Shown: piece by piece, positions 2,244 to 8,282 of the stretch
Layout of the letters: the number at the start of each line of letters is the position of its first letter
Position numbering within the stretch: the first letter of the stretch is position 1
Notes under the pieces: generated by a model
What the model was told of the DNA's origin: nothing
The model's database searches: none
The model's input: only the letters and a program-made list of their open reading frames with translations
NCBI GenBank assembly: GCA_025463365.1
Contig: JAOBWM010000157.1
Coordinates: forward strand, 1 to 42,130
Length of the DNA: 42,130 nucleotides
Direction of reading: 5' to 3'
Source of the DNA: Acidimicrobiales bacterium
GTDB taxonomy: Bacteria; Actinomycetota; Acidimicrobiia; Acidimicrobiales; Iamiaceae
Made by a program: the position numbers and the translations under genes

Positions 2244-2270
2244 GCGGCCCCGACGGTCAGGGCCGGCTCA
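2241..2270. terminator. Bidirectional stem-loop spanning two convergent stop codons
   Basis: TGAGC-GGCCC pairs with GGGCC-GCTCA around a 9-base loop with one bulged G. The left arm contains the TGA of the LLM gene and the right arm contains the helicase stop, so both 3' ends lie inside the stem. No T-run on either strand. Confidence 0.5.
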
Positions 2271-5138
2271 GGCTTCCACCTGGTCGAGCCGGGCGAGGAT
2301 GTCGTCGCCGTACCGATCGAGCTTGGTCGGCCCGATCCCGTCGCACGCGTTGAGCTCGGCCGCCGTGCTCGGCCGGGCCAGCGCGATCCCCCGGAGGTGG
2401 GCGTCGCTCAACACGACGTAGGGCGGCACGCCATCGGCCTTGGCCCGCTCGGTGCGCCACGCCCGCAACGCGCCCTCGGCGACGGCGGCACCGCCCCAGA
2501 GGTCAGCGGGCGGCGCCAATGGCGACTTCTTGCCGTCGAACTCCACCCGCTCGCCGAACCGCACGACGAGGCTGCCGCCCGACGACAGGCGGAGCTGCGC
2601 GGAGCGGCCGTCGACCGATTCCACCGTGCCCTCGTAACCGCCGAGCACCTTGAGGACCCGGCCCCGCTCCGCGGCGATCCCGGACACGGGTGCCGCCGGC
2701 TTCGCCTTGGCGCCCTTCTTGAACAGGGGCTCGACCTGGCCGCCCCGGGCCGCGGCCCGCTCGGCTTCGACCTCGCCGGGCCGTGGCGCCGGCCGCTTGG
2801 GCGCGGTGCCGGCCAGCTCGGCCAGGAACGGCGAGCGCCGCGTCCCGTCGGCCAGGACAGCGACGCGGTGGTGGCCGCGGGTGATGGCGACGTGCAGCAC
2901 GCGCCGCTCCTCTTCCCGGTCCTCGCTGAGCCGGTGCGGCATGACGCCATCGGAGACACCGAAGACGACCACGCGATCCCACTCACGCCCCTTCACCCGG
3001 TGGATGGTGGAGAGCACGACGCCATCCTCATCACGCTGACGCCCGAAGAGACCTCGCAACCAGGGCTCGAAGCCGGCCGGATCGGGGTGGAGGTCGGCGA
3101 CGCCGAGGAGGCCCTCGAGATCGTCGAGGTGGCTCGACCCCTGCCCGCCACCGGTCCGGTCGAGCATGCCCATGGCGGAGCCCAGTCCCACGTCGTCGCG
3201 CACGACCTCGAGCACCGATCGGGTGGTGCCGCCACGGGCCGAGGCCACGACAGCAGCGAGGTCGTCGGCCAAGCGCACAACCTTGGCCGCCTCCTTGTCC
3301 CCCACCTGATCCGCCAGGCCGCGCAGGGCCTGCACCGACCACGTTCGACGGCGGCCCAACCGGTCCGGGAACCACTGCGGCAGGCCGCGGGTGGGTCGGC
3401 GCATGATCTCGACGATGTCCGCGGCAGCCATGGCATCGCCCGACGCCGCGATCCGCAGGTAGGCCAGGGCGGCGCGCATGCCCGTGCGCTCGAGGACCTC
3501 GGGCCGCAGCACCGAGGCGAGGGGCACGCCCGCGTCAGCCAACGCCACCTGCGGCGCGAGCAGGAGCGAATTGACCCGTGCCAACACGGCCACGGATCGC
3601 GGATCGACCCCTGGCTCGGCCAGCCACTCCTGCACGAGCTGCGACGCGGTGACCGCGCCATCGTCAGGACCGTGGACGACGACCCGCAGGGCACCGGCTG
3701 CAGGATCCGCCTCCGGCCCGGCGTGGATCTCCTTGGGGACGCGACGGTGGTTGTACCCCAGCAAGGTACGGGCGCCATCCACCACCTCGACCGGGCAGCG
3801 ATAGTTGATCGAAAGCGGGTGCGAGGCCGCGCCGGGGAACAGGGCGGCGTAGTCGATCAGGAAGGCCGGATCGGCTCCCGCGTGGCCGTAGATCACCTGG
3901 TCGTCGTCACCGACGCCGAACACGTCGAGCCCGGGCAGGGCGAGCAGGCGGAGCAGGAGCACATGGGCCGGGGTGAGGTCCTGGAACTCGTCGACCAGGA
4001 GGTGACGGCACCGCTGCTGCAGCTTCCGCCGGAACGGCCCATCTGCGAGCAGGGCCTCGATGGCGCCATAGATCTGGTCGTCGAAGTCGACGCACCCCCG
4101 GTCGGCGAGGTGGCGACGATACGGATCGAACAGCTGGGCCAGACCGTCGACGTCGTCGCGCGATGCCTCGACGTCCGACGGATCCTCGAGGCCGAGCCGT
4201 ATCGAACCGAGGGCCTCGAGGTAGGGGCCGATGGGATCGGTGTTGGCCCGATGGCGACGGTTCCCGGGGAGGAGCGAGTCCACCAGGCGGCGACAGTCCC
4301 GCTCGTCGAGCAGCCCCGGCGAGCTGCCCCGGTGCTGGGCCAGGACCCACAGGCCCAGGGAGTTGAGCGTGCGCACGCGAGGGCGGAACGCTGCGGTTCG
4401 CCGCTCCAGCTCGAGCTGGGCCTCCTTGTTGTACGCGACGGCGAGGACCGAGCCGGGATCCCACCCTCGCGGGCCGAGCAGGTGGCGAAGCCGTTCCGTG
4501 AGCACACGCGTCTTCCCCGACCCGGCCGGCGCGATGACCCGAGCCGGCCCACTCAGGTGGGCGACCGCCGCCAGCTGGTCGGCGGCGAGGTCCGCCACCG
4601 GATCGGTCGGGTCGGCTTCGACCGCCAGGCCACCTTCCTCGACGGCCTCGTGGTGCACCACTGCCGCGCCGTCGAGCACCGCAGGGTCCCACGGCCGGCG
4701 CGGTCCGCCGTCGACCCACGCGCCACGCCCGTCGGCCAGCTCGACATCGCCCGGCCCGGTCGCCGTCTCGGCGGCACCCAGGCGGGACGCCTTGCGGGCC
4801 CACCACCAGACCGCCTGGCCCAATCGGGCGTCGTAGGTGTTGTTCCAGACCAGGAAGTGCAGCCGGTCGAACCACGGTTCTGACTCGGGGCGCAGGCGCC
4901 ACGGCTCGACCTTGATCGACGACGCATCGCGGAAGAGCGCCGGGTCGACCGCCAACTCGACCACCACCGCCTCCCGGCCTGCCCACGCGGCATGCAGCCG
5001 CCCCACCACCGCGGCTGGAGCGTTCAGCGCGGCATCGTCGATCGTGATGACGGGCGCGCTGATCCACGGGGCCGGAATGGCATCTCCAGCGTTGATGACG
5101 ACGCCGCGCCCCAGCGCGGCCGGTCCGGGAACAGGCAC
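2268..5138 (-). CDS. UvrD/Rep-type superfamily 1 DNA helicase with C-terminal HRDC domain
   Basis: A 956-residue ATP-dependent 3'-5' DNA helicase, likely in repair or replication restart. Walker A is APAGSGKT with Lys209, motif II is LLVDEFQDL, motif III is GDDDQVIYG, motif IV has INYRCP, and motifs V-VI are STIHRVKGREWD and HVAITRGHHR. The last ~65 residues look like an HRDC fold (LNACDGIGPTKLDRYGDDIL). UvrD2 of mycobacteria also has an HRDC domain. The unusual part is about 190 residues before motif I, Trp-rich (FLVWNNTYDARLGQAVWWWA) and not matching a domain I know. The GTG start at 5136-5138 is supported by TAGGTT 6 bases upstream. A palindrome covers the likely -35. It could be called UvrD-like; exact orthology is uncertain. 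Confidence 0.9.
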   Translation of the reverse strand: MPVPGPAALGRGVVINAGDAIPAPWISAPVITIDDAALNAPAAVVGRLHAAWAGREAVVVELAVDPALFRDASSIKVEPWRLRPESEPWFDRLHFLVWNNTYDARLGQAVWWWARKASRLGAAETATGPGDVELADGRGAWVDGGPRRPWDPAVLDGAAVVHHEAVEEGGLAVEADPTDPVADLAADQLAAVAHLSGPARVIAPAGSGKTRVLTERLRHLLGPRGWDPGSVLAVAYNKEAQLELERRTAAFRPRVRTLNSLGLWVLAQHRGSSPGLLDERDCRRLVDSLLPGNRRHRANTDPIGPYLEALGSIRLGLEDPSDVEASRDDVDGLAQLFDPYRRHLADRGCVDFDDQIYGAIEALLADGPFRRKLQQRCRHLLVDEFQDLTPAHVLLLRLLALPGLDVFGVGDDDQVIYGHAGADPAFLIDYAALFPGAASHPLSINYRCPVEVVDGARTLLGYNHRRVPKEIHAGPEADPAAGALRVVVHGPDDGAVTASQLVQEWLAEPGVDPRSVAVLARVNSLLLAPQVALADAGVPLASVLRPEVLERTGMRAALAYLRIAASGDAMAAADIVEIMRRPTRGLPQWFPDRLGRRRTWSVQALRGLADQVGDKEAAKVVRLADDLAAVVASARGGTTRSVLEVVRDDVGLGSAMGMLDRTGGGQGSSHLDDLEGLLGVADLHPDPAGFEPWLRGLFGRQRDEDGVVLSTIHRVKGREWDRVVVFGVSDGVMPHRLSEDREEERRVLHVAITRGHHRVAVLADGTRRSPFLAELAGTAPKRPAPRPGEVEAERAAARGGQVEPLFKKGAKAKPAAPVSGIAAERGRVLKVLGGYEGTVESVDGRSAQLRLSSGGSLVVRFGERVEFDGKKSPLAPPADLWGGAAVAEGALRAWRTERAKADGVPPYVVLSDAHLRGIALARPSTAAELNACDGIGPTKLDRYGDDILARLDQVEA

Positions 5139-5144
5139 CCCGCC

Positions 5145-5150
5145 AACCTA
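5145..5150 (-). promoter_or_regulatory. -10 box TAGGTT for the helicase gene
   Basis: On the minus strand TAGGTT ends 6 bases before the GTG start. A possible -35, TTGAGT, lies 15 bases upstream, inside the palindrome at 5163-5182. This favours leaderless transcription. Confidence 0.55.
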
Positions 5151-5162
5151 CGCACCCCCACT

Positions 5163-5182
5163 GACACTCAAGATGGAGTGTC
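5163..5182. promoter_or_regulatory. Palindrome over the helicase -35 region, possible operator
   Basis: GACACTC and GAGTGTC form perfect 7-bp arms around 6 bases. On the minus strand its right arm overlaps the putative -35 TTGAGT. The position suits a repressor site. It does not match the classical actinomycete LexA box (TCGAAC-N4-GTTCGA). Confidence 0.42.
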
Positions 5183-5269
5183 CTCGGTCGGGGCCAGGTC
5201 TGACCCTCCCCACTGACTGGCAACGAACGCTGGCCCACCCGGGCGCCAGTCGACCCCACCACCACCACC

Positions 5270-5709
5270 TGTGCGCGCACCAGCGCGCCCAACACAACCC
5301 AGCGCACACACCCCGCGCCCACCCCCGACCCCCGACCGACCATGTGTGCGCGCACCAGCGCGCCCCACGCGGCGCGGCGCACACACCCACCCCACCCCAA
5401 CCCCACCACGTGTGCGCGCCGAAGCGCGCCCGGCGCGTCCCAACGCACACACCCCCACCCCGACCGCTGCATGTGTGCGCGCACCAGCGCGCCCCACGCG
5501 GCGCGCCGCACACGCCCCCACCCCGACCCCTGCACGTGTGCGCGCCGAAGTGCGCCCCACGCGGCGCGGCGCACACACCCCACCCACCCCCGACCCCACC
5601 ACGTGTGCGCGCCGAAGCGCGCCCGGCGCGTCCCAGCGCACACACCCCCACCCGAACCCCACCACGTGTGCGCGCCGAAGCGCGCCCCACGCCGCCTGGC
5701 GCACACACC
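5270..5709. repeat. Tandem array of seven 63-75 bp hairpin units
   Basis: Seven units begin with TGTGCGC at 5270, 5345, 5411, 5474, 5537, 5604 and 5667, and each closes with (G)CGCACAC about 30-35 bases later, so the ends pair. In most units an inner stem (GCGCGCC with GGCGCG) forms inside the outer one. Two inner versions occur: one with CGAAG and a 1-base inner loop (copies 3 and 6), one with ACCAG and a longer loop (copies 2 and 4), and copies 5 and 7 mix them. Units are separated by C-rich, G-poor linkers of about 22-34 bases, often ending CCACCACG. The array fills most of the 571-bp gap 5139-5709 between ctaG and the helicase gene. No convincing gene lies in this gap. Confidence 0.85.
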
Positions 5710-6561
5710 TCAGCCCGAGGCGGTGCTGGCGTCGGCGGCGGCAGAGGCGGCGTCGGCGCGACGGTCGGCGCGAGCGGCCTCGCGCTGGTCGGCGACGTAC
5801 CAGCGCCGGACGACGACGGCGGCGACGGCGAGCGTGAAGAGCTCGCCCATGCCCCACAGGAGGCCGGCCGCGGTCCGCTGGTCGCCGAGCGAGGGATAGG
5901 CGTCGGGGGCGAGGGGGGTGGTGGCCGAGTACATGGCCAGTCCGAGGAACGCGTGGAAGGGCACGGCGGTGAGCACGGCGAGCAGGCGCGCCGGGTGCGG
6001 GATCGGCCGGGGTGATGGATCGGCGCCGACGAGCCCGGCGAGGAACAACGTCCCGAACACCACCAGGTGGGCATGGACCGCGAGGTGCGCCCAGGGGTTG
6101 CGCGCCGCCAACCCGAGCAGCGGCGTGAGGTAGAGCACGACCATCCCGCCGCCGAACAAGACCCACGTCACGACGGGGTGGGTCAGCACCCGGGCGACGG
6201 GATGGCGCAGGGCGGCCCGGATCGTGCGCCCGGTCGCCGGCCCGCCGCTCTGCATGGCGAGGGTGAGCGGTGCAGCACAGACCGTCGCGAACGGCACGAC
6301 CATCCCGAGCAACAGGTGCTGGATCATGTGGACGGTGAGCCGCTGATCGTCGTAGCGACCGATGCCCGACTGGGTGGCCACCACGCCGGCGCCGACCGCC
6401 AGCGCCCACCACGTCGACCGCACCCGCGGCCACGCCCGGCCTCGTGCCGCCAGGCGCCGAACGCCGCGTCCGTAGGCGAGCGCCGCCGCGGCCAGCAGCA
6501 GCGCGGCAGCGGGATCGAGGCGCCAACGGGTCAGCACGTCGACCGAGGTGACCGGACCCAT
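5710..6561 (-). CDS. ctaG: Cytochrome c oxidase assembly protein, CtaG (caa3_CtaG family)
   Basis: A 283-residue integral membrane protein of the caa3_CtaG family, which helps assemble haem-copper oxidases, probably by copper delivery to the CuB site. About seven hydrophobic helices are visible, with the family's conserved histidines in LTVHMIQHLLLGM (near residues 75-88), HAHLVVFGTLFLAG (near 162) and VPFHAFLGL (near 195-203). The C-terminal tail is Ala/Asp-rich and likely disordered. The ATG at 6561 is supported by TAGCGT 6 bases upstream. It is divergent from ctaE with a 191-bp shared promoter region, so both may be set by the same respiratory signals. The hairpin array begins immediately beyond its 3' end. 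Confidence 0.9.
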   Translation of the reverse strand: MGPVTSVDVLTRWRLDPAAALLLAAAALAYGRGVRRLAARGRAWPRVRSTWWALAVGAGVVATQSGIGRYDDQRLTVHMIQHLLLGMVVPFATVCAAPLTLAMQSGGPATGRTIRAALRHPVARVLTHPVVTWVLFGGGMVVLYLTPLLGLAARNPWAHLAVHAHLVVFGTLFLAGLVGADPSPRPIPHPARLLAVLTAVPFHAFLGLAMYSATTPLAPDAYPSLGDQRTAAGLLWGMGELFTLAVAAVVVRRWYVADQREAARADRRADAASAAADASTASG

Positions 6562-6567
6562 GGGGCA

Positions 6568-6573
6568 ACGCTA
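6568..6573 (-). promoter_or_regulatory. -10 box TAGCGT for leaderless ctaG
   Basis: Minus-strand TAGCGT ends 6 bases before the ctaG ATG; no Shine-Dalgarno is visible. Confidence 0.5.
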
Positions 6574-6739
6574 CGGCAGCTCGTCCCGTGCGGCGCCGTG
6601 CGGCGCCGGCCGCCGACGGGCATCGACGGGCGTCGCCCTGGGCACTCCACGAGCGCAGGGTCACCCGCGGCGGCCTCCTCGATCGTCGACCGATCGTGCC
6701 ACCAGGACCAACGGCGACGATCCAGAGCAACCGCTCTGG

Positions 6740-6745
6740 TAGAAC
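6740..6745 (+). promoter_or_regulatory. Weak -10 box TAGAAC before ctaE
   Basis: TAGAAC ends 7 bases before the GTG at 6753. The last T of the consensus is missing, so support is weaker than at the other leaderless starts. Confidence 0.35.
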
Positions 6746-6752
6746 GGCTGCG

Positions 6753-7331
6753 GTGGTCGACAGCGCGACGCTCGACGGGCACGGCACCGCCCGTACCCCC
6801 GACCCACTCGTGGTCGGCATGGTCGTCTGGCTCGCCTCGGAACTGATGTTCTTCTCCGGGCTGTTCGCGGCCTGGTTCACGCTCCGGGCCAACGCCACGA
6901 AGTGGCCGCCGGCGGGCGTCGAGCTGGCCACCGCCCGGACGGCCGTCGCCACCGCTGTCCTGCTGTCGTCGAGCTTCACGATGCACCTCGCCGTCGCCGC
7001 TGCGAACCGGGACGATCGGGCCCGCTCGGTCCGGTGGCTGGTGGTCACGGTGGCCATGGGTGCCGTGTTCTTGGGCAACCAGGCGTGGGAGTACGCCGTG
7101 GCGCCGTTCCACATCGGCTCCCACGCGTACGGCTCGATCTTCTACCTGATGACCGGGTTCCACGGCCTCCACGTCCTGGGTGGCCTGGTGTTCCTGCTGA
7201 CCATCGCCGGCGTCGTCGGTGGTCGCTCGAAGGCCCCGGCTGCCCGCACCGTGGAGATGGCCGCGGCCTACTGGCACTTCGTCGACGCCGTCTGGGTCGC
7301 CATGTTCACCGTGGTGTACCTGATCTCATGA
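6753..7331 (+). CDS. ctaE: Cytochrome c oxidase subunit III
   Basis: A 192-residue subunit III of the aa3-type haem-copper oxidase. Five helices are expected and can be traced: VGMVVWLASELMFFSGLF near residues 20-37, a second near 57-75, VTVAMGAVFLGNQAWEY near 89-105, FYLMTGFHGLHVLGGLVF near 119-136, and the final YWHFVDAVWVAMFTVVYL near 168-188. The glutamate in ASELMFFSGLFAAWF and the HFVDAVW ending are hallmarks of the family. An upstream frame stays open to 6588, but that part is Arg/Pro-rich with no family likeness, so GTG 6753 is chosen. The stop overlaps the qcrC ATG by four bases, coupling the oxidase subunit to the bc1 complex genes. Confidence 0.92.
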   Translation: MVDSATLDGHGTARTPDPLVVGMVVWLASELMFFSGLFAAWFTLRANATKWPPAGVELATARTAVATAVLLSSSFTMHLAVAAANRDDRARSVRWLVVTVAMGAVFLGNQAWEYAVAPFHIGSHAYGSIFYLMTGFHGLHVLGGLVFLLTIAGVVGGRSKAPAARTVEMAAAYWHFVDAVWVAMFTVVYLIS

Positions 7332-8218
7332 ACCACGCCGACCAGCCCGAGCGGCGGCACCGCCGGCATCGGCGGTTGGCGCTCGTCTCCGTGCTGGGCG
7401 GGGTCGTCGGGCTCACGTTCCTGGTCGTCGGCCGGGCCCCGGCCGGGGCGGACAGCGACCTCGAGGCCCACGGCCGCAGCCTCTACCTCGAGGGCTGCGT
7501 GAGCTGCCACGGGACCAAGGGCCAGGGCGTCGGAGGCTCCGGCGGCGACAACGAGCGCGGCCCGCGGATCACCGATGCCGGTGCCGCCGGCGCCTACTAC
7601 ATGCTCTCGACCGGCCGCATGCCCCTGAACGATCCCAACGAGCAGCCGCACCGCAAGGATCCCGCCTACGGACCCAAGGACATCGACGCCCTCGTGGCCT
7701 TCGTCGCCAGCCTCGGCCACGGTCCTGCGCTGACGAAGGTCGACCTTGCCGATGCCAGCCTGGCCAACGGTGGCCTGGTGTTCCGGGCCGACTGCCAGGC
7801 CTGCCACTCGGCCTCGGGCAGCGGTGGAGCCCTCTCGTACGGAAGGGCGGCACCGAGCCTCCGCGAGGCGACCCCCGAGCAGGTGGCGGCGGCCGTGCGC
7901 TCGGGACCGGGACAGATGCCGGTGTTCGGCCAAGGCGACGTGGATCGCAAGCAGCTCCGCGACCTGGTGGCCTACGTGCAGTACCTCCGCCACCCGTCCG
8001 ACCGCGGCGGCCTGGCCATCGGCCGCGTGGGACCGGTCCCCGAGGGGTTCGTCGCCTGGTCCGTCGGCGTCGTGCTGCTCCTCGCGTGCGTGTTCTGGAT
8101 CGGCACCCGCAGCCCGATCCGCTCCCGCCCGGGCGCCAACGCTGATGCCGACGCTGATGCCGACGCAGACGCCCACACCAACGCCGACTCCGATGCCGAC
8201 GTGGGGAGCGAGCCGTGA
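7328..8218 (+). CDS. qcrC: Diheme cytochrome c subunit of menaquinol-cytochrome c reductase
   Basis: A 296-residue membrane-bound cytochrome cc that passes electrons from the Rieske protein to the CuA site of the oxidase, replacing soluble cytochrome c in actinomycetes. An N-terminal helix lies near residues 17-36. Two c-type haem motifs follow: CVSCH at 57-61 and CQACH at 156-160, with likely Met ligands in GRMPLND and GQMPVFG. A C-terminal anchor helix spans about 242-262. After it comes an acidic tail of Ala-Asp repeats encoded by a tandem GCCGACGCTGAT unit at 8141-8200; this tail is unusual and probably cytoplasmic. The start and stop overlap ctaE and qcrA by four bases each, so ctaE-qcrCAB is one operon. 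Confidence 0.93.
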   Translation: MNHADQPERRHRRHRRLALVSVLGGVVGLTFLVVGRAPAGADSDLEAHGRSLYLEGCVSCHGTKGQGVGGSGGDNERGPRITDAGAAGAYYMLSTGRMPLNDPNEQPHRKDPAYGPKDIDALVAFVASLGHGPALTKVDLADASLANGGLVFRADCQACHSASGSGGALSYGRAAPSLREATPEQVAAAVRSGPGQMPVFGQGDVDRKQLRDLVAYVQYLRHPSDRGGLAIGRVGPVPEGFVAWSVGVVLLLACVFWIGTRSPIRSRPGANADADADADADAHTNADSDADVGSEP

Positions 8219-8282
8219 CCGACCCAACCGAGCCTCCCGACCCAACCGAGCCACCCGAGCCAACCGAGCCACCCGAGCCACC
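8141..8282 (+). repeat. Low-complexity coding repeats at the qcrC/qcrA junction
   Basis: A 12-bp unit GCCGACGCTGAT (with variants) runs over 8141-8200 in the qcrC tail, and an 18-bp CCAACCGAGCCACCCGAG unit over about 8223-8282 in the qcrA head. Both code acidic stretches (Ala-Asp and Pro-Thr-Glu). Confidence 0.7.

Follow-up and report, generated by a model that had tools for sequence, protein, structure and literature searches.

The seven tandem palindromes between ctaG and a helicase gene in this Acidimicrobiales genome are one locus of a dispersed family of intergenic palindromes. We consider it the best explanation, at a probability of roughly 0.6, that they belong to a genome-wide, untagged REP-like palindrome that has also grown locally in tandem. 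The family comprises at least 116 units at 26 or more intergenic places in its own genome, a 4.31-Mb assembly of 219 contigs that is 98% complete and related to Aquihabitans. The window, by which we mean the whole stretch of 42,130 nucleotides analysed here, is contig C50 of that assembly.

Seven near-palindromes of about 41 bp each are arranged head to tail at the locus (Table 1), with start-to-start steps of 75, 66, 63, 63, 67 and 63 bp and linkers of 22–34 bp, and all seven share one orientation. The array occupies most of the 571-bp gap between ctaG and the helicase gene, beginning 3 bp past the ctaG stop codon and leaving about 130 bp between its other end and the helicase start. The first-pass annotation had read this stretch as a seven-unit tandem array of double-stem hairpins in an intergenic gap. 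The array and its placement hold up: the unit count, Tandem Repeats Finder (5320–5709, period 63, 6.1 copies, score 454) and shuffle controls agree, with five exact matches to TGTGCGC-N18–40-GCGCACA in the window against a mean of 0.03 and a maximum of 1 in 100 dinucleotide shuffles. The double stem survives only in part. Both outer arms, TGTGCGC and GCGCACA, are exact in five of the seven units and carry one mismatch in the other two, whereas the inner stem changes register between units and the unit at 5270 has diverged. Rfam gave no match in the window at the gathering threshold, and the phage and plasmid collections gave no match to the array. Elsewhere in the window, hexamer and 9/18-bp tandem repeats at 8134–8282 span the junction of two genes, cytochrome c and Rieske by motif, and yield repetitive protein ends.

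Table 1. Features at the array locus, in window coordinates.
Feature	Positions	Strand	Basis or remark
Array of seven units	5270..5705	.	G-rich strand minus
Unit 1, most diverged	5270..5308	-	Covariance model R1, 35.6 bits
Unit 2	5345..5383	-	Covariance model R1, 57.2 bits
Unit 3, one arm mismatch	5411..5449	-	Covariance model R1, 54.0 bits
Unit 4, one arm mismatch	5474..5512	-	Covariance model R1, 54.0 bits
Unit 5	5537..5575	-	Covariance model R1, 51.9 bits
Unit 6	5604..5642	-	Covariance model R1, 54.7 bits
Unit 7; 8-letter arm stops 3 bp from ctaG stop codon	5667..5705	-	Covariance model R1, 52.1 bits
CtaG gene (caa3 cytochrome oxidase assembly factor), 3' end toward array	5710..6561	-	PF09678, E 1.1e-62
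UvrD/REP-type helicase gene with HRDC domain, 5' end toward array	2268..5138	-	PF00580, PF00570
Stretch upstream of helicase start, alike in Aquihabitans sp. G128	5139..5172	-	By eye

Searching the whole genome for TGTGCGC...GCGCACA units, as the first-pass annotation had proposed, revealed that the array is not a local feature. Exact arm pairs occur 46 times, against once for the reversed pattern. Reading out the loci around these matches yielded 111 units, distributed over 23 arrays or single copies, and a search with covariance model R1 added five units at three more places. The resulting totals are a lower bound, because 150 of 12,544 model candidates were scored; weak matches with three arm mismatches in loci L105 and L051 were left out of the count. 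Arrays hold between 1 and 12 copies, with single copies at C25b, C59, C84, C54.1 and position 6245 of C161. All 26 places lie outside called genes, the calls being those of a home-made codon-usage caller seeded with five window genes. At four of the 26 places (contigs C108, C185, C177 and C110; loci L036, L037, L042 and L050) the array ends no more than about 60 bp from a contig end, so the repeats probably break draft assemblies and are under-counted. Mobile REP-like palindromes had been one of the options offered in the first-pass annotation, and the dispersed, intergenic and palindromic nature of the family supports this option: it has a palindromic unit in the range of about 20–50 bp, many dispersed copies and an extragenic location.

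The units follow a common plan, in which GTGTGCGC is followed by about 25 variable bases with a short inner GCG/CGC dyad and then by GCGCACAC. The oriented consensus reads GTGTGCGC(GC), five variable bases, CGCG, a loop, a short inner arm, five variable bases and (GC)GCGCACAC. Copies are homogenised within arrays: unit identity is 0.846 within arrays and 0.738 between them (111 units), linker identity is 0.69 and 0.54 (73 linkers), and none of 300 label shuffles reached the within-array value for either units or linkers. Under model R1, the best-scoring strand is uniform for nearly all units of an array, the exceptions being C83, one unit of C210 and a near-tie in C161. C83, with 12 irregular units, was excluded from the spacing and linker statistics. 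Because both units and linkers are alike within arrays, it is probable that copies dispersed first and then multiplied locally into arrays; such likeness is probably the trace to be expected of tandem duplication of a unit together with its linker.

Movement and copy-number change, as we infer them from the copies in this one genome, could have proceeded in two stages. Single copies would reach intergenic sites through a putative trans-acting enzyme that may recognise the conserved arms, or the hairpin that they could form in single-stranded DNA. At each site, the number of copies would then rise by replication slippage or unequal exchange. A stable hairpin with its linker is a good slippage unit, which is why slippage is a plausible route of growth, and either process would account for the copying of linkers with their units and for the homogenisation of arrays. 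Host effects, such as stopping or protecting ctaG transcripts or altering local supercoiling, would be possible side effects rather than the reason for conservation.

The first-pass annotation had seen selection on structure rather than on sequence, and its proposal to fold the array as RNA gave results that fit this on their face. The predicted minus-strand fold of each of the seven units is a hairpin (z from −1.8 to −3.5), and the array as a whole is more stably folded than each of 100 shuffles both as minus-strand RNA (z −3.2) and as plus-strand DNA (z −6.7). The substitution patterns argue otherwise. In an alignment of 80 of the 111 units, which left out the 12 units of C83 and 19 that were of odd length, diverged or near-identical, the covariation score of 0.160 fell below the 0.176 of shuffles and was equalled or exceeded by 494 of 500 of them. 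When 19 pairs were set in one register, 85.6% of cells were pairing, compared with 86.3% after columns were shuffled. A register-free half-swap test on 99 units (C83 excluded) gave a mean of −24.8 kcal/mol for units with their own halves and −25.4 for halves exchanged across arrays; the real combination was matched or surpassed in stability by 176 of 200 permutations on the G-rich strand and by 110 of 200 on the opposite strand. Thus neither the covariation test nor the half-swap test supported the compensatory changes expected of selected RNA stems. At the sequence level the outer arms hardly vary, and drift is seen in the five middle bases of either half.

One pattern did point towards pairing. 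On the G-rich strand of the 80 aligned units, G-U cells outnumber A-C cells by 211 to 33 (columns 1, 2 and 6 excluded), and among variants coexisting within arrays by 39 to 15. Differences between half-sites that were mostly G-U on one strand had first made selection on RNA structure plausible, and the excess favours pairing at face value, yet it can also come with an inherited orientation of the element. We rejected such selection because of this single inherited orientation, the low covariation, the negative half-swap result and the independence of strand from the neighbouring genes. A structured regulatory RNA built of repeated hairpins is therefore very improbable: the negative folding z-scores and the G-U excess are what it would predict, whereas the covariation below shuffles, the half-swap result on both strands, a strand that ignores gene direction and the lack of an Rfam match in the window all weigh against it.

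The genes around the arrays share no common theme. Among the 40 of 44 flanking genes scanned with Pfam (two at L040 and one each at L044 and L047 were left unscanned), nine had no match, none matched a Cas family, and the products included Dus, NadA, an F420H2-dependent reductase, LytB, an RNA methyltransferase, FdhD, an ABC ATPase, a sigma factor, BldD-like and Fpg-like proteins, TetR, MMPL and a 4-alpha-glucanotransferase, among others. Gene ends facing arrays were 24 stop sides and 17 start sides, so that 3' ends are not significantly favoured (p = 0.35). At the 17 places where both flanks are known, gene pairs were convergent at seven, co-directional at seven and divergent at three; when every gene pair in these loci with a gap of 40 bp or more is counted, those around arrays among them, the numbers are 22, 48 and 31. 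This context tally omits weak or distant flanks (C54 left, C84 left and both at C119). Convergent pairs look somewhat more frequent at arrays, leaving room for a role at 3' ends. The G-rich strand is the gene strand at 7 of the 12 places scored, a tally that omits convergent and divergent places as well as C54, C84 and C119, and it has no clear orientation preference.

These surroundings bear on whether the units are clustered hairpin terminators, whose copies cooperate in ending or protecting transcripts where a gene ends, in this case ctaG. Clusters of hairpins have been proposed as intrinsic terminators for which poly-U trails are unnecessary (PMC8355165). Consistent with this idea, the last arm ends 3 bp past the ctaG stop codon, stable hairpins are predicted on the ctaG-sense strand, and the arrays in C210, C161, C197 and C25a lie 20–27 bp from a stop codon. 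However, more uniform placement would be expected of a dedicated terminator or promoter element, and the mixture of stop sides, start sides and pair types, including divergent genes, makes one unlikely. Strand shows no preference relative to genes, and arrays of 10–12 units would seem to exceed what termination needs. A terminator consensus scan of the ctaG–helicase array found one site, which starts in a linker rather than in a unit hairpin, and no T tract follows a unit hairpin in this array. Termination as the general function of the family is accordingly improbable in our assessment; at single places such as ctaG, where the first-pass annotation had suggested a transcription barrier, a terminator role is possible as a by-product.

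The spacing of the units raises a different alternative. Of 77 steps (C83 excluded, as above), 63 measure 57–67 bp with a mean of 61.5 bp; the mode is 62 bp (25 of 77), 51 of 77 fall at 60–63 bp, and other steps in the family span 54–136 bp. A step of about 62 bp, or about six helical turns, would set successive copies on one face of the helix, as in a phased array in which a dimeric protein of nucleoid, gyrase-like or partition type binds the dyad arms. This is the main rival to the REP-like explanation, because it accounts for both the six-turn step and the sequence-conserved arms, but we regard it as unlikely. The changes within pairs without covariation agree with it, as does the recurrence of a 61-bp step with other arms in two other genomes (G230 and G098, below), and one array lies in an rsmG–parA gap beside parS-like sites. 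Set against these points are the existence of single copies, the wide range of steps, the 72–74 bp that predominate in genomes G228 and G005, and the lack of a protein candidate; moreover, only 1 of the 26 places is near parA. That place (L045, contig C119) is a region of about 4.2 kb without a called gene, at 2797–7046 between rsmG/gidB and a ParA-type gene whose start an ORF scan puts at 7001. It contains an eight-copy array at 4035–4524 and sequences that we take to be parS-like, GTTCCACGTGAAACGG at 2825 and 5454 and GTTCCACGTGGAACCT at 6904.

A step of 61–63 bp is also as regular as that of short CRISPR arrays, and open reading frames pass through the ctaG–helicase array. A CRISPR-like array, repetitive coding sequence or an assembly artefact is nevertheless barely credible as the source of the arrays. 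The first-pass annotation was right to set CRISPR aside: whole units vary, and linkers are alike within arrays, not unique. All three frame classes are represented among the steps (27, 20 and 16 of 63), contrary to what repetitive coding would require, and an artefact would have to recur at 26 separate places on many contigs, although it may still have affected the number of units in an array.

We then compared the family with other genomes. In the related complete genome of Aquihabitans sp. G128, whose genus belongs to Acidimicrobiales, ctaG and the helicase gene are adjacent and 67 bp apart, as opposed to 571 bp here, a gap too short for an array. This is one locus in one distant genome, and the difference could reflect a deletion. 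By eye, the stretch at 5139–5172 resembles the Aquihabitans sequence over GCGTAGGTTGGCGGGGTG, continuing into the helicase start codon. Genome G003, which appears to be Aquihabitans sp. G128 because the ctaG position matches, has no exact arm pair. Across the 396 other Acidimicrobiales genomes, exact arm pairs occur 74 times versus 16 for the reversed pattern. We considered whether TGTGCGC arms are shared across the order as a recognition site and rejected this, because a composition-matched control arm, TGCGTGC/GCACGCA, gave a similar 71 (38 for its reverse; 397 genomes), with 27 of the 71 belonging to one family in G230. The similar frequency of the control arm indicates lineage-specific families with various arms rather than universal TGTGCGC arms. 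In a phylum sample of 396 genomes, only the present genome stands out, with 45 exact arm pairs; the next highest has 5.

What recurs in the order is a format, an intergenic palindrome of about 40 bp that in several genomes is stepped at 61–62 or 72–75 bp. Small TGTGCGC families of near-constant length with other cores occur in G228 (10 copies), G208 (8), G005 (4), G043 (3) and G286 (3), and the three arm pairs in G122, each of a different length, are probably background. Of the copies read in other genomes, 29 of 32 are not inside a gene called with the caller trained on the present genome, although two of these overlap a gene end by 9–13 bp; the other three (L081, L090 and L102) are inside called genes. 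The palindromes of G228 and G005 are stepped mostly at 72–74 bp (62 bp once). The G230 family, with TGCGTGC arms, is 40 bp long and has three pairs at 61-bp steps (seven copies read), and the G098 family has steps of 61 and 75 bp, once each. In these two genomes (L109–L112), the arms read GAACT-TGCGTGC...GCACGCA-AGTTC, and linkers of 21 nt give the 61-bp step in four of five neighbouring pairs. Model R1 found one marginal match in 12 other genomes (G005, E 0.076), with 150 of thousands of candidates scored per genome, and no match reaching E 0.1 in the loci retrieved from G005, G043, G017 and Aquihabitans sp. G128.

Several other palindromes came to light in these genomes. In G005, different palindromes are clustered side by side at 4600–4860 of L078 and 2700–2950 of L080, the types being GAGGTGGGCGCG...CGCGCCCACCTC, AGAATCTGCGCAGATTC and the TGTGCGC type. 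G208 (L085–L089), G286 (L095–L097) and G204/G180 (L102–L103) carry ten single palindromes, in most of which (not L088 or L096) GTTC/GAAC or a variant lengthens the TGTGCGC...GCGCACA stem; most lie no more than 100 bp from a gene end, and L102 is the one inside a called gene.

Part of the evidence that counts against the REP-like reading concerns mobilisation. A search for a REP-associated transposase gene, suggested in the first-pass annotation, came back empty: RAYT (the Y1 transposase family PF01797) had no match in the genome, in a search that recovered matches in 5 of 14 and 6 of 14 controls in two runs. There is no candidate mobilising enzyme, and GTAG tags are found within 7 nt of none of the 111 units. 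As for the tag of CGTC-REPs, CGTC and GACG each lie within 7 nt of only 6 of the 111 units. Among the nine genomes searched for PF01797, only G286 exceeded the cut-off; this Y1-type match is at G286:C80:24221-24553 (L107), and the same genome has three TGTGCGC palindromes. A different transposase gene, of IS481 type, lies at L049 (contig C84, 4615–6014) with end-like repeats, TGTCACCCAGGTCCCGCGACA and near copies, on both sides. It is 268 bp from the single palindrome copy of that contig, but IS481 ends were rejected as a source of the palindrome, the inverted repeats around the gene (TGTCACCC...) being different.

A more speculative and rather doubtful idea is that Acidimicrobiales share a RAYT-independent way of making arrays at a step of about 61–62 bp, six helical turns, whatever the arms. 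Its basis is the step itself, with a mode of 62 bp here, three pairs at 61 bp in G230 and 61 bp once in G098; the 72–74-bp steps of G228 and G005, perhaps seven turns, count against a fixed value. If the step were set by a protein, either one that binds the array or a copying enzyme that measures it, this would point to new repeat-building or chromosome-organising machinery, and the recognition arms of such machinery would turn over between lineages.

Known repeat systems offer several parallels to the REP-like family described here. MIRU minisatellites of Mycobacterium tuberculosis are likewise tandem repeats scattered between the genes of an actinobacterium, at dozens of sites; their units are longer than the palindromes here and are not palindromic. 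What is known of REPs comes largely from bacteria that have RAYT transposases (PMC3116915). The present family resembles the REPs and REPINs that accompany RAYTs in Pseudomonas and Escherichia in being made of short, imperfect extragenic palindromes with many copies, sometimes in tandem clusters, but differs in that no PF01797 or GTAG was found, the arms are different and the head-to-tail arrays are longer. In Pseudomonas fluorescens SBW25, tandem REPIN clusters include flanking sequence, and the largest cluster named has four REPINs (PMC3116915). CGTC-tagged REPs have no transposase of their own, and REP-like families without a tag are on record as well; CGTC-tagged and untagged stem-loop families occur in M. 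tuberculosis, Deinococcus, Bordetella, Brucella and Cyanobacteria (PMC3733652). These are palindromic families as well, but clusters are rare in the CGTC families and usual here, and stems of 8–9 bp with loops of 4–5 contrast with the longer palindrome here (same source). The BIMEs of Escherichia coli, mosaic clusters of REPs, share palindromes clustered with short spacers (PMC2817692) but alternate in orientation, whereas the arrays of this genome, with the three exceptions given above, do not. A table in the RepRanger paper includes a row for Acidimicrobium ferrooxidans (PMC12306157). No title or abstract opening among the literature matches listed, with subscription papers outside the scope, describes the present palindrome family. 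Because untagged REP-like families and tandem REPIN clusters are already known, the present family is a variant and not a new category. Its distinctive features are long arrays, no RAYT found and several lineage-specific families in one actinobacterial order; an order that has repeatedly amplified its own palindromes into long regular arrays, with no RAYT detectable in the present genome, would be a tractable case in which to look for another mobilising or array-building mechanism.
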